Part shown: positions 4,677-62,179 of the stretch, one piece after another
Layout of the letters: every line of letters begins with the position of its first letter
How positions within the stretch are numbered: the first letter of the stretch is position 1
From: an uncultured Flavobacteriales bacterium
Lineage (GTDB): Bacteria > Bacteroidota > Bacteroidia > Flavobacteriales_F > PHOS-HE28
Direction: 5' to 3'
Assembly: GCA_937872175.1 (NCBI GenBank)
Contig: CALMPI010000050.1
Span: 62,001 to 126,000, forward strand
Length of the DNA: 64,000 nt
Notes under the pieces: model-generated
What the model was told of the DNA's origin: nothing
The model's input: the letters and a program-made list of their open reading frames with translations, nothing else
Databases searched by the model: none
Made by a program: the position numbers and the translations under genes

Positions 4677-5627
4677 ATGCTCAACCGGCGCTACCTGCGC
4701 ATCAAGGTCTACCAGTCGCTCTATGCCTATTGGCAAAGCGATTCCTCCAGCGCCGCGCGCATCGAGAAGGAGCTGTTCCTGAGCATCGAACGCACCTTCG
4801 ACCTGTTCGTTTCGCTGTTGCTCACCTTCGGCGAGCTGCGCCGCGCCAGTGAGCTCCGCATCGAGGAACGACGGCTGAAGCGCCTGCCCACCGCCGAGGA
4901 CCTCAACCCCAACCGGCGCTTCGTGGACGGTACCCTGCTGAACGCGATCGCGGGCTCGTCCGTGCTGGAGGCCGAAGCCGGCAAACGAAAGGTGGGGTGG
5001 ATGGGGCAGGGCGACCTGTTCCAGCGGATCCTCAAACAGATGGACCAGGATGAACGCTACAAGGCCTTCGTCGCCACCCCGGCCGACGATCTGCGCAGCG
5101 AGCAGCAGTTCCTGCTCCACCTGTTCGTCGAGCTTGTCGCCAACGCGGAGGAACTGCACGATCATTTCGAGGCGCGCAGCATCTACTGGCTGGAGGACCT
5201 CGACCTGGCCTGCGCACTGGTGAAGCGCGTGCTCGAAGGCCTTCGCGCTCCGGCCGCGTTCGACCCGGCCGTGGTCGACGTGCTGGCCGCCCCGTCCGCT
5301 GAACAGCATTTCGTCAGCACCCTCTTCCGGACAAGCATCGAGCAGGGCGATGAGCACGGTCGACTCATCGCCGAGAAGGCCGCCAACTGGGAGGCTGACC
5401 GGATCGCCCTCAGTGACATGATCCTCATGCGCATGGCCCTCACCGAGGCGCGCACCTTCGAGGACATCCCGGTGAAGGTGACCCTCAATGAGTACATCGA
5501 GGTGGCCAAGGCCTACAGCACCCCCAAGAGCAAGAACTTCATCAACGGCATCCTCGACAAGCTGTTCCAGGAGCTCAAGGAGCAGGGCGCGATCCGCAAG
5601 GTGGGCCGCGGGTTGCTGGAGGGCTGA
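4677..5627 (+). CDS. nusB: NusB transcription antitermination factor, long Bacteroidota form
   Basis: A 316-residue protein; the N-terminal MLNRRYLRIKVYQSLYAYWQ and the C-terminal ALTEARTFEDIPVKVTLNEYIEVAKAY followed by KNFINGILDKLF are diagnostic of NusB. The C-terminal third is the RNA- and NusE-binding helical bundle; the extra roughly 150 N-terminal residues are the usual Bacteroidota extension compared with the 139-residue E. coli protein. Acts in the rRNA antitermination complex. It follows leucine dehydrogenase by 33 nt and is 11 nt ahead of the DUF1573 lipoprotein, so it is probably co-transcribed. Confidence 0.92.
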   Translation: MLNRRYLRIKVYQSLYAYWQSDSSSAARIEKELFLSIERTFDLFVSLLLTFGELRRASELRIEERRLKRLPTAEDLNPNRRFVDGTLLNAIAGSSVLEAEAGKRKVGWMGQGDLFQRILKQMDQDERYKAFVATPADDLRSEQQFLLHLFVELVANAEELHDHFEARSIYWLEDLDLACALVKRVLEGLRAPAAFDPAVVDVLAAPSAEQHFVSTLFRTSIEQGDEHGRLIAEKAANWEADRIALSDMILMRMALTEARTFEDIPVKVTLNEYIEVAKAYSTPKSKNFINGILDKLFQELKEQGAIRKVGRGLLEG

Positions 5628-5638
5628 ACGTGACCAAG

Positions 5639-6160
5639 ATGGTGCATCCGAACGCCACCTTCCTTCCCTGCCAGAACCCCTTGCGGCGGGTGCTGTCCGC
5701 CGCCTTCGTCCTTGTCGTTCTTCTCCTCGGCGGCTGCCGCATCACCGACCATAGCGAGCACGCTTCGGACGAGGTGGACCCCACGGCCCTCGACGGCCGG
5801 GCCTCCGGTTACACCGACGCCTCCGGTGAGCTGCCGGTGATGACCTTCGACAGCACCCTGATCCACATGGGCCGCATTTCCCAGGGCACCGTGGTGGAAC
5901 GCCGCTTCCGGTTCCGAAACACCGGTGTGGGCGATCTGGTGATCGCCGATGTTCGCGGCAGCTGCGGGTGCACCGTGGGCAAGGACTGGCCCCGGCGGCC
6001 GATCGCACCCGGCGACACCGGCGCCATCACCGTTTCCTTCGACAGTGAAGGGCGGGAAGGCATCCAGGAGAAGACCGTTTCGGTGGTCGCCAATACGCGT
6101 CCGCCCACCACCATCCTCACCATCAAGGGCGAAGTGCTCACTCCGCTCTCCAACCCCTGA
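5639..6160 (+). CDS. DUF1573 domain lipoprotein
   Basis: A 173-residue predicted lipoprotein. A hydrophobic stretch ends in the lipobox LLGGC (Cys33), followed by an acidic linker and one DUF1573 domain (about 65-170) with the hallmark ERRFRFRNTGVGDLVI and SCGCTVGKDWPRRPIAPGDTG split across it. The domain has an Ig-like (ASPM/SPD-2/Hydin) fold. I chose the ATG at 5639; a GTG three codons upstream is also possible. Function unknown, probably periplasmic or outer-membrane attached. Located between nusB and yajC. Confidence 0.85.
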   Translation: MVHPNATFLPCQNPLRRVLSAAFVLVVLLLGGCRITDHSEHASDEVDPTALDGRASGYTDASGELPVMTFDSTLIHMGRISQGTVVERRFRFRNTGVGDLVIADVRGSCGCTVGKDWPRRPIAPGDTGAITVSFDSEGREGIQEKTVSVVANTRPPTTILTIKGEVLTPLSNP

Positions 6161-43698: not shown

Positions 43699-43851
43699 GG
43701 GGACAAGGTAGGGGCTGCGGCCGCGGTCGGCGACGACCCTCGGGCGGCCCATGGATGGGTGGTCTGCACAACCAAGCACACGCGACCGACTATCTTTCCA
43801 TCGCTACACACCGTTCGATGACGTTGAACGAACCACCGGTCATGACGAGCG

Positions 43852-43870
43852 GCGAAGTCACAGACTTCGC
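43852..43870. repeat. Small hairpin in the accessory segment
   Basis: GCGAAGT-CACAG-ACTTCGC, 7-bp perfect arms. It lies within the 253-nt gap between the DUF937 gene and the A+T-rich gene, which otherwise shows no convincing gene. Confidence 0.4.
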
Positions 43871-43951
43871 GAGCCAGCCTGGTGGCTTCGCGACAGGCAT
43901 CCGCCGCACAAGTCGCCCCGCGCGAACCCAGGCGCGGGAAGAGGTGCGCGA

Positions 43952-44350
43952 CTAAATGCCGTATTTATCATTGAAGTGTTTATGGTAATTTGGAGGTTTT
44001 GGTCTAGGTTCTTTAATGCCATAATATACACCAAGAAGGCCCAGAATTATCATTGAAACAAATCTCTCAATAGTTAAACTCAATCGTTCTTTATCGCTAG
44101 GCTCCCATCCATCGTAAACTTCTGACGAAGAACCCATAGACGTGTACGTTACTATGGCGACAAAGAGAGACAATGTTAGAACCATATATACTGCTTTTCT
44201 GTAATTGGGGTATTCATCTTTCCGTGCGACCCAATTTTCATTTCTTGCAGCTAATGCACACAACGAAAACCAAAATAACGCCTTTCCAATAGTCCAAAAA
44301 TACTCAATTAAGTTTTCGTAAATAGCCTTAATATCTATCATTTCACTCAT
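43952..44350 (-). CDS. A+T-rich gene for a small membrane protein, likely acquired
   Basis: A 132-residue protein with predicted membrane helices near 18-36 (FWTIGKALFWFSLCALAA), 50-70 (AVYMVLTLSLFVAIVTYTSM) and 95-112 (FVSMIILGLLGVYYGI), and a Lys/Pro/His-rich C-terminus. Codon use and composition differ sharply from the rest: positions 44041-44100 hold only 19 G or C of 60, against roughly two thirds in the window. No family recognised. A promoter fits upstream (44403-44434). A cargo gene of horizontal origin is the simplest reading. Confidence 0.75.
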   Translation of the reverse strand: MSEMIDIKAIYENLIEYFWTIGKALFWFSLCALAARNENWVARKDEYPNYRKAVYMVLTLSLFVAIVTYTSMGSSSEVYDGWEPSDKERLSLTIERFVSMIILGLLGVYYGIKEPRPKPPNYHKHFNDKYGI

Positions 44351-44402
44351 TGTACTTGTCTGTATTTAGTTGCCATCAAAATGCCGCTTGGAGCTTCACG
44401 AT

Positions 44403-44434
44403 GCAAGGTAGGGCGCAACCTCTAAATCGCACAA
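44403..44434 (-). promoter_or_regulatory. Probable promoter of the A+T-rich gene
   Basis: On the minus strand TTG (44434 to 44432), a 21-nt spacer, and TACCTTGC (44410 to 44403), one mismatch to TAnnTTTG; leader about 50 nt. Confidence 0.4.
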
Positions 44435-44485
44435 TTTCACACCCTGCTGCACTCAGGGCCTGTCGAAGCCGGGACGGGGGTGGCG

Positions 44486-44507
44486 CCGGGACGGATGCCC
44501 CGCCCGG
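44486..44507. repeat. G+C-rich hairpin
   Basis: CCGGGACGG pairs with CCGCCCGG around a 5-nt loop (one bulge). It sits in a run of short G+C-rich palindromes and looks like part of an interspersed non-coding element. Confidence 0.4.
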
Positions 44508-44648
44508 GATCGCAGCGGTGGCCCAGCGCAGCCCAGAGCGTGCGGTGCACGACACGTAGAGGCGAGCAACGGGAGCCCCGCAGGGCGATGCATCGCAGCC
44601 CGCAGCCAGACGGCCACAGCGGAGAGCCCGACAGGTTGCCCAGTCATG

Positions 44649-44691
44649 CCCTCACTCGACACGCACTGCCTTCCTACGGGCTGAGCCGAGC
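44649..44691. repeat. 43-bp diverged direct repeat, copy A
   Basis: Begins CCCTCACTCGACACGCAC and ends GGCTGAGCCGAGC. Identical to copy B (45506-45548) at 37 of 43 positions counted by eye. The two copies bracket the coiled-coil gene 44773-45189. In copy A the inner arm CTCGAC has lost one pairing base against GCCGAG. Confidence 0.7.
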
Positions 44692-44772
44692 AAAAACCTA
44701 CGGGATGGCCGAAACGGTTGCAGGCATCGTTCCGGCCTCTGGTAGTTTCTAAGAAGTTCGGGTGCTCGGAGG

Positions 44773-45189
44773 CTAGGGAAAGAACTTCGTGACTGCCGAG
44801 GACGGCGCATCGGCGCCATATTCACCCATGGGCTTATCATTCTTCCTGTGAATGCGGAGGCTACGATAGGACGGCTCGAACTTGCTCTCTTGCACAATGC
44901 TAACCACGACCGTGGTGGTCTTTGCGCTGGGCGGAAAGGTTGCTGTGATCGAGCCAATTTCTCCCGTGGTGACGGGGGCGCGCATGGTAATCTCAACGTC
45001 TTTGAACCCGGCATTCTCCAAGTCGCTCTTTGCCCTCTCCAACAGTCGATGGACCTTTTGGTATAGTTCTTCACACGCCTTCATCTCCTCTCTTTGGGCG
45101 GCATCGGCGATGCTATTGTCGGCTTTCTCCTGGGCGGCGAAGCGGTCAGCCTCTTCCTTCAGCTTATGCAGGCGTTCTCTTTCGGTCAT
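44773..45189 (-). CDS. Coiled-coil protein of unknown function
   Basis: A 138-residue soluble protein. The first 60 residues form a charged helix or coiled coil (ERLHKLKEEADRFAAQEKAD, CEELYQKVHRLLERAKSDLE), the rest a small beta domain (FKDVEITMRAPVTTG, ITATFPPSAKTTTVVVSIVQ, YRSLRIHRKNDK). No signal peptide or membrane segment. Lower in G+C than the chromosomal norm, though not as extreme as the gene to its left. Bracketed by the two repeat copies. Not recognised. Confidence 0.6.
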   Translation of the reverse strand: MTERERLHKLKEEADRFAAQEKADNSIADAAQREEMKACEELYQKVHRLLERAKSDLENAGFKDVEITMRAPVTTGEIGSITATFPPSAKTTTVVVSIVQESKFEPSYRSLRIHRKNDKPMGEYGADAPSSAVTKFFP

Positions 45190-45498
45190 GTTCTTGTGCT
45201 TGAATGTTCAGCGGACCAGTTAGCAACAATCACGCCTGTTGTCCTTTGCTGCCAGTATACCCGCTGCGAGGCACGATGACTGACACGTGGGCAGACTTAA
45301 CTGCCCTCCCCGTTGGTGCTCGCTGGGCTCCGTTTCCTCGTCGACGCTAGTGCACCGCCCGACCATGCGGGTGTTGCCGCTTGTGTTGGCCAGTGCGGTG
45401 GGTTTCGGTGTCGTGCGTGGCGCAAGGGATAGGGCGTCCTCGCCCGTCGGCTATCCGGGCAACATACCAGGGCTTTGACCCGGCGGGCCGGAGGCCCT

Positions 45499-45560
45499 AC
45501 GGATACCCTCACTCGGCACGCACGGTCTTCCCGCAGGCTGAGCCGAGCGGGAACATCCGT
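45499..45560. repeat. Nested inverted repeat
   Basis: Outer arms ACGGAT (45499-45504) / ATCCGT (45555-45560) and inner arms CTCGGC (45512-45517) / GCCGAG (45542-45547) would fold into a two-level stem. It contains the whole of repeat copy B, so the copy may be a structured unit rather than a random duplication. Confidence 0.55.
45506..45548. repeat. 43-bp diverged direct repeat, copy B
   Basis: CCCTCACTCGGCACGCAC to GGCTGAGCCGAGC; same orientation as copy A, 857 bp away. Inner arms are intact here. Confidence 0.7.
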
Positions 45561-45672
45561 GAGGAACAGCCCGCAGTTCCGCCACCTGCTCGATCGCGGC
45601 CTCCAGGTGCTCAGGGCGACAACCGCCAGGGGGTGGTGAGGGGGCAGTTTTGCCTCACCAACACCGACCCCC

Positions 45673-46188: not shown

Positions 46189-46194
46189 GGCTGC

Positions 46195-46236
46195 AAGCCT
46201 CAAGCCTCCAGCCTCGAGCTTCAAGCCTCAAGCTTC
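46195..46236. repeat. Six tandem 7-bp units (nAGCYTC)
   Basis: AAGCCTC, AAGCCTC, CAGCCTC, GAGCTTC, AAGCCTC, AAGCTTC in an unbroken row directly after the stop codon of the upstream gene. The last unit also forms the left arm of the terminator hairpin at 46230-46257. Confidence 0.85.
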
Positions 46237-46257
46237 CTGCCGCAAGCGGGAGGCTTT
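46230..46257. terminator. Terminator built on the heptamer repeat
   Basis: 11-bp stem AAGCTTCCTGC / GCGGGAGGCTT (two G-T wobbles), loop CGCAA, then TTCGG. Lies between convergent genes. Confidence 0.6.
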
Positions 46258-60298: not shown

Positions 60299-62179
60299 AT
60301 GGAACGCGCGAAGGCCTTTCCCCGCTGGGCGGTCCTGTTGCTGGACCTCGGCCTCTGCCTGACGGCGCTGGTGGCCGCCTACCAGCTTCGCTTCAACTTC
60401 CAGGTGCCGCCGCTCGAGTGGCGGCTGCTGGGCCCCGTGCTCCCCATTTATCTGGCCGTGCGGTCGGGCTCCTTCCTGCTGGCCGGCATCCAGCGCGGCA
60501 TGGTGCGCCATACGGGCACGGAGGACGCGCGCCGCATCTTCTTCACCGTGGTGGCCGGATCGGTGGTGCTGGCCCTGCTCAACCTGGTCCGGGAAGCCGT
60601 GGTGGACGGCCGCTACCTTCTCCCCTTCTCGGTGCTCATCATCGAGACGATGGGCGCCCTCATCGCCATGATCGCCTCGCGCATCGCCGTGAAGCTGCTC
60701 TACCTGAAGGCCCGTGGAAGTGGAAAGGAACGGGTGAACGTGGTGATCCATGGGGCGGGCGAGGCCGGGTTGATCACCAAGCGCACACTCGAGCGGGAAG
60801 GCTCGGCACGTTATGCCGTGGCGGCCTTCGTGGATGATGATCCGCGCAAGACCGGACGCAGGCTCGAAGGCGTGGAGGTGTGGCACACCGACCGGCTTCC
60901 CGGCCTGCTCGCCGGTGGCGAGGTGCAGCAGGTGATCATCGCCATCATGAACCCCGATCCGGAGCACCGGCGGAAGGTGGTGGACGCCTGCATGGCCGCC
61001 AGGGTGCAGGTGCGCAGCATCCCTCCGGTGAACGCCTGGATCAATGGGCAGCTCAGCGCCGGCCAGATCCGCGAGGTGCACATCGAGGACCTGCTCGGCC
61101 GCCCCATCATCCGGCTGGACGATTCGGTGGTGCGCTCGCGGTTCGCGGGCGAGCGCGTCCTGGTGACCGGTGCTGCGGGCAGCATCGGCAGTGAACTGTG
61201 CCGCCAGCTGGCGGCCCTCGGGGTGTCGCGACTGGTGCTGCTGGACCAGGCGGAGAGCCCGCTGCACGATCTTTCCGTGGAATTGGACCGCACCGGGCCG
61301 GATCTCGAGCTCGCCACCGTGGTGGGTGATGTGCGCGAGGCGGATGCCGTGGACCGGCTGATCGCGCTGCACCGGCCGACGGTGGTCTTCCATGCAGCGG
61401 CCTACAAGCACGTTCCGCTCATGGAGCTGCAACCCGCCGAGGCGGTGCGCACCAATGTGGGCGGAACGCTGAACGTGGCCGAAGCGTGTGTTCGGCACGG
61501 GGTGCGCGACCTGGTGCTGGTGAGCACCGACAAGGCCGTGAACCCCACCAGCGTGATGGGCGCCACCAAACGTGTGGCCGAGCTCTGCCTGCGCGCCCTG
61601 CACGCCCAAGGCACGTCCACGCGGTTCATCACCACGCGCTTCGGCAACGTGCTCGGTTCCAGCGGGTCCGTGATCCCCCTGTTCCGCAGGCAGATCGCCA
61701 CCGGTGGACCCGTGACGGTGACCCATCCCGAGGTGACGCGCTACTTCATGACCATCCCCGAGGCCTGCCGGCTGGTGTTGGAGGCCGGGACCATGGGCCA
61801 GGGCGGCGAGGTGTACGTCTTCGACATGGGGGCGCCCGTGCGCATCCAGGACCTGGCCGAGCGCATGATCCGCCTCAGCGGCAAGGAACCCGGGCGCGAC
61901 ATCGCCATTCGGCACACCGGTCTGCGTCCGGGCGAAAAGCTCTACGAGGAACTGCTGGCGGCGAGGGAGGATACTCAGCCCACACACCACCCGCGCATCC
62001 TCATCGGCCGTGATCAGGGCGCTCCGCCGCCCGGAACCCTGGAGGAGATCCGGTCCATCGCCACCATGGCGCACGTGGCAGCGCCCGAGGTGCTCGTGGC
62101 CCGCATGAAGGCCCTGGTGCCCGAGTACCGCAGCCGGAACTCCGTCTTCGAGGCGCTCGATGAGGCCCGGCCGCACTAG
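60299..62179 (+). CDS. FlaA1/CapD-type nucleotide-sugar epimerase/dehydratase
   Basis: A 626-residue membrane-bound polysaccharide biosynthesis protein. Four N-terminal helices (about 12-130: WAVLLLDLGLCLTALVAAYQ, VLPIYLAVRSGSFLLAG, TVVAGSVVLALLNLV, LLPFSVLIIETMGALIAMIA), a CoA-binding-like Rossmann domain (GAGEAG) and the catalytic SDR domain: GAAGSIGSELCRQLAALG, STDKAVNPTSVMGATKR with Met420-x3-Lys424 in place of the Tyr-x3-Lys, and RFGNVLGSSGSVIPLF. Matches PglF/WbpM-like C4,6-dehydratases of UDP-GlcNAc. Upstream of surface glycan work; divergent to the glycosyltransferase. Confidence 0.92.
   Translation: MERAKAFPRWAVLLLDLGLCLTALVAAYQLRFNFQVPPLEWRLLGPVLPIYLAVRSGSFLLAGIQRGMVRHTGTEDARRIFFTVVAGSVVLALLNLVREAVVDGRYLLPFSVLIIETMGALIAMIASRIAVKLLYLKARGSGKERVNVVIHGAGEAGLITKRTLEREGSARYAVAAFVDDDPRKTGRRLEGVEVWHTDRLPGLLAGGEVQQVIIAIMNPDPEHRRKVVDACMAARVQVRSIPPVNAWINGQLSAGQIREVHIEDLLGRPIIRLDDSVVRSRFAGERVLVTGAAGSIGSELCRQLAALGVSRLVLLDQAESPLHDLSVELDRTGPDLELATVVGDVREADAVDRLIALHRPTVVFHAAAYKHVPLMELQPAEAVRTNVGGTLNVAEACVRHGVRDLVLVSTDKAVNPTSVMGATKRVAELCLRALHAQGTSTRFITTRFGNVLGSSGSVIPLFRRQIATGGPVTVTHPEVTRYFMTIPEACRLVLEAGTMGQGGEVYVFDMGAPVRIQDLAERMIRLSGKEPGRDIAIRHTGLRPGEKLYEELLAAREDTQPTHHPRILIGRDQGAPPPGTLEEIRSIATMAHVAAPEVLVARMKALVPEYRSRNSVFEALDEARPH

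Follow-up and report, generated by a model that had tools for sequence, protein, structure and literature searches.

Probable orphan REP-like hairpins of the RAYT type around a single gene in an uncultured Flavobacteriales bacterium

The window, which is the whole stretch of 64,000 nucleotides analysed, covers positions 62,001 to 126,000 of contig C50 in the own genome (G000; 4.3 Mb, 52 contigs) of an uncultured Flavobacteriales bacterium. It has an island of ~1.8 kb with two open frames, of 138 and 132 residues, the former bracketed by two diverged repeats, A and B, and the latter adjoining another repeat element, REP2 (Table 1). The flanking genes, named from their translations, encode a HerA-like helicase and a DUF937-like protein on one side and MORN-like, esterase-like and TPR proteins on the other. 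Past the MORN-like gene, 14-bp tandem repeats (GCCTCAAGCCTCCA-like) are found at 46190-46247 and also at the syntenic place of a sister MAG, G005 (L131 6714-6772, reversed strand).

Regarding the 138-aa gene, it has no Pfam match, its NCBIfam match to PME_inhib is below the cut-off (22 bits vs 36), and one distant relative (38%) was found in the other 44 genomes of the genus. It was considered as a RAYT and rejected, as the HUH motif is also missing. The 132-aa ORF matched no family and has no homologue in the same 44 genomes.

Table 1. Positions of the features in the window, with strand and remarks
Feature	Position	Strand	Remarks
Island absent from the syntenic site in G029, G006 and G005	43720..45531	.	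edges by G029
Second-family REP-like element REP2	43851..43951	+	at the island's left end
132-aa ORF, AT-rich	43952..44350	-	stop codon abuts REP2
REP-like element copy A, module M1	44646..44705	-	profile 50.6 bits, E 4e-14
Copy A, stem arms	44651-44660 and 44685-44694		loop 24 nt
Copy A, foot	44695-44698	-	GGTT
Bracketed gene, 138 aa	44773..45189	-	open frame
Accessory hairpin GGGCC-GGA-GGCCC adjoining M1	45485..45497	.	from sequence
REP-like element copy B, module M1	45503..45562	-	profile 53.3 bits, E 6e-15
Copy B, stem arms	45508-45517 and 45542-45551		loop 24 nt
Copy B, foot	45552-45555	-	TGTT

The sequence-only reading of this locus described a match between A (44649-44691) and B (45506-45548), in the same orientation and identical at 37 of 43 bases, around the 138-residue gene. 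This match was reproduced, with a start-to-start spacing of 857 bp, and extends to about 60 bp at 78% identity (47/60; limits in Table 1), beyond which the flanks have no more homology to each other. The differences within the 43 bp lie mainly in the loop, as had been proposed (five of six, the other one being in the stem), and the nested arms described at B were also found, as a stem CTCACTCGGC/GCCGAGCGGG with CGGAT/ATCCG outside it. The DNA fold of copy B has a z of about -2 on both strands. Copy A alone folds no better than its shuffles (z +0.6/+0.7), and it retains 10/10 standard pairs of the family stem, via wobbles. A pattern search allowing three mismatches returned A and B as its sole matches.

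When a 106-bp query around B was searched against the whole own genome, it retrieved A (E 6e-8) together with a third copy, C46:27678-27718 (E 1.4e-6), thus placing the A/B repeat beyond chance. The third copy is truncated and located ~40 bp past the stop of a 233-aa ORF; at this locus (L004 7679-8662, G000:C46) it adjoins a transposase remnant that includes an integrase core (rve_3). All three have CTCAGC and GGAAG in common, and their loop is shorter by 3-6 nt than that of the copies of G005 and G006, which suggests that they may form a lineage-specific subfamily.

Among the 45 genomes of the genus, matches were restricted to G000, G005 and G006, with three, nine and one copies by BLAST, respectively, these numbers being lower bounds from BLAST-type searches and fetched stretches. 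Copy B is 74-83% identical to those of G005 and G006, most of which also have the GGGCC-GGA-GGCCC hairpin beside M1. The M1 copies elsewhere in the genus are mainly intergenic, in tandem clusters free of genes, such as the one on C124, located in a gap between genes. A distant BLAST of a plasmid collection gave no match. ParE-type toxin genes and a recombinase C-terminal remnant were observed between or beside REP clusters in both genomes, at L023 7531-8564 (G006:C35; Pfam PF05016) and L022 6001-6289 (G005:C30).

In G005, M1 is part of a composite unit of ~300 bp, in tandem on C124, with which window positions 45471-45557 (copy B and its neighbouring hairpin) can be aligned. This unit holds two related hairpin modules, M2 and M3, which are oriented oppositely to M1. 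On the strand that carries GTT, M1 has the stem CTCGCTCGGC/GCCGAGTGAG, M2 has GCCGCTC../..GAGCGGC and M3 has GGCGCTCGGC/GCCGAGTGCC; the stems have a length of 10 bp in common and a fourth pair that is mostly G·T, and most copies have GTT immediately 5' of the stem. The feet are mostly NGTT in G005/G006 and TCCC in G033/G034, the canonical REP tetranucleotide GT[AG]G being absent 5' of the stem.

The covariation of the stem was evaluated over 20 distinct arm pairs, whose rows are concatenated arms brought into register manually and with a pairing search, a procedure biased toward structure: standard pairs occupy 92% of the cells vs 24-43% when the arms are slid, the covariation score is 0.463 vs 0.242 in shuffled rows, and two-sided changes amount to 26 cells vs 10.1 shuffled and 0-8 in the slid controls. 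Pairs 1, 2, 9 and 10 swap orientation, and the module-level swaps CTC/GAG, GGC/GCC and GCC/GGC can be read straight from the sequences. The stem thus appears to have been kept through compensating changes. According to the sequence-only reading, a lack of other copies and of covariation would have left only a local old duplication; other copies and covariation were both found.

The G005 contig C108 carries a RAYT gene (5386-5922, 178 codons, P0001), first seen as a weak Y1_Tnp match. An M1 copy lies on either side of it (5281-5335 and 5972-6025), and M3 modules occur around it. The gene product reaches 98 bits with the NCBIfam model REP_Tyr_transpos (NF047646, cut-off 80) and stays below the cut-off of the IS200 model (NF033573). 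Its length of 178 aa and its motifs HLH, WQ and YIxxNP fit TnpA-REP subclass 2.6 (RAYT group 5, Bacteroidetes). This subclass is mostly from Bacteroidetes and has flanking atypical structures without GT[AG]G, its REP elements being presented in the literature consulted only as atypical and spotted by manual inspection (PMC6006769). RAYTs 57-60% identical to that of G005 are present in at least three more genomes, G021, G033 and G034, flanked by hairpins GGCGCTCGG[CG]../..[CG]CCGAGTGCC with a stem nearly that of M1, and further relatives occur in Runella, Fulvivirga and Chitinophagaceae. A loss of catalysis in some RAYTs with Phe for Tyr in the 'KSYTAK' motif was considered and discarded, since the invariant tyrosine is that of YIxxNP, the listed Y motif (PMC6006769). 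A general count of hairpins gives 0.51 per kb in RAYT loci vs 0.23 in control loci, which is weakly supportive.

Two RAYTs are encoded in the own genome, with 46% and 42% identity to that of G005; none closer than 46% was found in it, and the repeats around both loci are from families other than M1. One of them (L046 3449-7253, G000:C17) lies amid several ~119-bp repeats with a CCAGTTTGCAACTGG-like palindrome, and the second has GCGTCGCACAGGCGTCCCGCCTGTG palindromic repeats downstream (L047 4828-4928 and 7051-7151, G000:C17). REP2, with the palindrome GCGAAGTCACAGACTTCGC, is 86% identical to DNA located 10 bp downstream of the own RAYT gene C17:48144-48647, and its family is found just downstream of RAYTs or RAYT remnants in G000, G009, G015 and G006.

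Considering the island, its flanking genes are syntenic in the three relatives that lack it, and its edges are 43711-45577 when set by G005/G006. Compared with G029, the right edge falls within the loop of hairpin B, as G029 keeps 37 bases that are 76% identical to B's right half and flank, a match equalled by 1/2000 shuffles, while the left edge is ~130 bp outside REP2. An insertion in G000 and a deletion in G029 would account equally for this arrangement.

Taken together, A and B are very probably diverged orphan REP-like hairpins of the RAYT/TnpA-REP type, the one served by an HUH Y1 enzyme of subclass 2.6/RAYT group 5. What is observed is the repeat family, the covarying hairpin, the G005 RAYT flanked by M1 and the presence or absence of the ~1.8-kb stretch; mobility of the element is suggested by its anatomy. 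The reading is also supported by the RAYTs of G021, G033 and G034 with their flanking hairpins, and by the second REP family of the window, found beside RAYTs or RAYT remnants. By analogy with the TnpA-REP literature, the RAYT would recognise the single-stranded hairpin, which has the GTT foot 5' of the 10-bp stem and the conserved G-T wobble at pair 4, then nick near it and help the element to be copied or moved from one intergenic site to another. The cognate RAYT, of the G005 type, may have been lost from the window lineage, and A, B and the third copy would be remnants, as no close relative of this enzyme was found there. Several points count against this reading: the RAYT-REP link for the window copies runs through a relative, G005, as the two RAYT loci of the own genome carry other repeats; only three M1 copies were found in the own genome, REPs being usually more numerous; copy A alone folds no better than its shuffles; and the way in which the covariation rows were put in register favours the structure. 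The GT[AG]G foot is missing too, as it reportedly is in subclass 2.6 (PMC6006769). From the three options of the sequence-only reading, the REP-like element is thus favoured, by the copies that flank the G005 RAYT and by the stem covariation, and the recombination site and non-coding RNA are disfavoured.

It is also conceivable, but unlikely, that A and B are REPs that in addition moved the genes between them, or that REP2 and B did so, with the RAYT acting on two ends in the manner of IS200/IS605. This would agree with a two-gene stretch missing in three relatives and ending on both sides at or close to REP-type elements, with a right edge inside hairpin B against G029, and with a REP2 end that coincides with the stop of the 132-aa frame. 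Against it, no second case of M1 copies bracketing a cargo gene in this way was found, the left edge lies ~130 bp outside REP2, and a deletion in G029 or an insertion by other means fits equally. The IS200/IS605 ends likewise combine an HUH Y1 enzyme and subterminal hairpins, but the G005 RAYT is below the IS200 cut-off (NF033573). The wider proposal, that the RAYT-served hairpins of this genus are breakpoints or ends for moving short segments of one or two genes, with domesticated REP transposases shuffling accessory genes as well as REPs, is a long shot. Orphan REPs and a second REP family, in an intergenic region that gained or lost DNA, are the simplest account.

A structured non-coding RNA or terminator-like transcript end is improbable: the conserved stem, the intergenic placement and the position of A, 68 bp past the 3' end of the 138-aa gene, would suit it, but the Rfam scan of the window gave no family at the gathering score, the modules occur in both orientations within one composite unit, the stem is not followed by a T-run, and the association with a single-stranded DNA transposase explains the hairpin. 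The integron-like cassette, with A and B as attC-type recombination sites, is hardly credible, even though a single gene lies between hairpin sites of the same orientation with GTT at the stem foot, in a stretch missing from relatives. The feet read GTTCTCG/GTTGGCG/GTTGCCG, not the attC core GTTRRRY, and the RYYYAAC partner is absent. No integron integrase exceeded the cut-off in G000, G005 or G006, where the TIGR02249 matches (best 121 vs 265 bits) are sub-cut-off tyrosine recombinases, likewise seen in 14/14 control genomes. As for the cassette arrays suggested by the sequence-only reading, the copies elsewhere form tandem intergenic clusters without genes, and the sole gene seen between two close M1 copies is the RAYT itself. 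That 60 bp were simply duplicated locally long ago, as two copies in the window would allow, is refuted by the third copy on another contig and those in two other genomes.

Compared to TnpA-REP subclass 2.6 (PMC6006769), the system shares the length and the HUH/WQ/YIxxNP motifs of the G005 RAYT, hairpins without GT[AG]G and further genomic copies, and differs in that no such RAYT accompanies the window copies, and in the 10-bp stem with a GTT foot and a G-T wobble at pair 4, set in a three-module tandem unit of ~300 bp, that is described here. As in the gammaproteobacterial REP/BIME/REPIN elements, there are short intergenic hairpins in alternating orientation and in clusters, and a RAYT flanked by its own elements, but GTAG/GTGG is absent, the loop is longer (24-30 nt) and the copies are few.

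The window repeat is thereby explained as ordinary mobile-element debris. The genus offers a clear example of subclass 2.6 in which foot, stem and wobble are defined, and it includes both orphan remnants and several diverged pairs of RAYT and hairpin, so that the coevolution of enzyme and hairpin becomes testable outside Proteobacteria.
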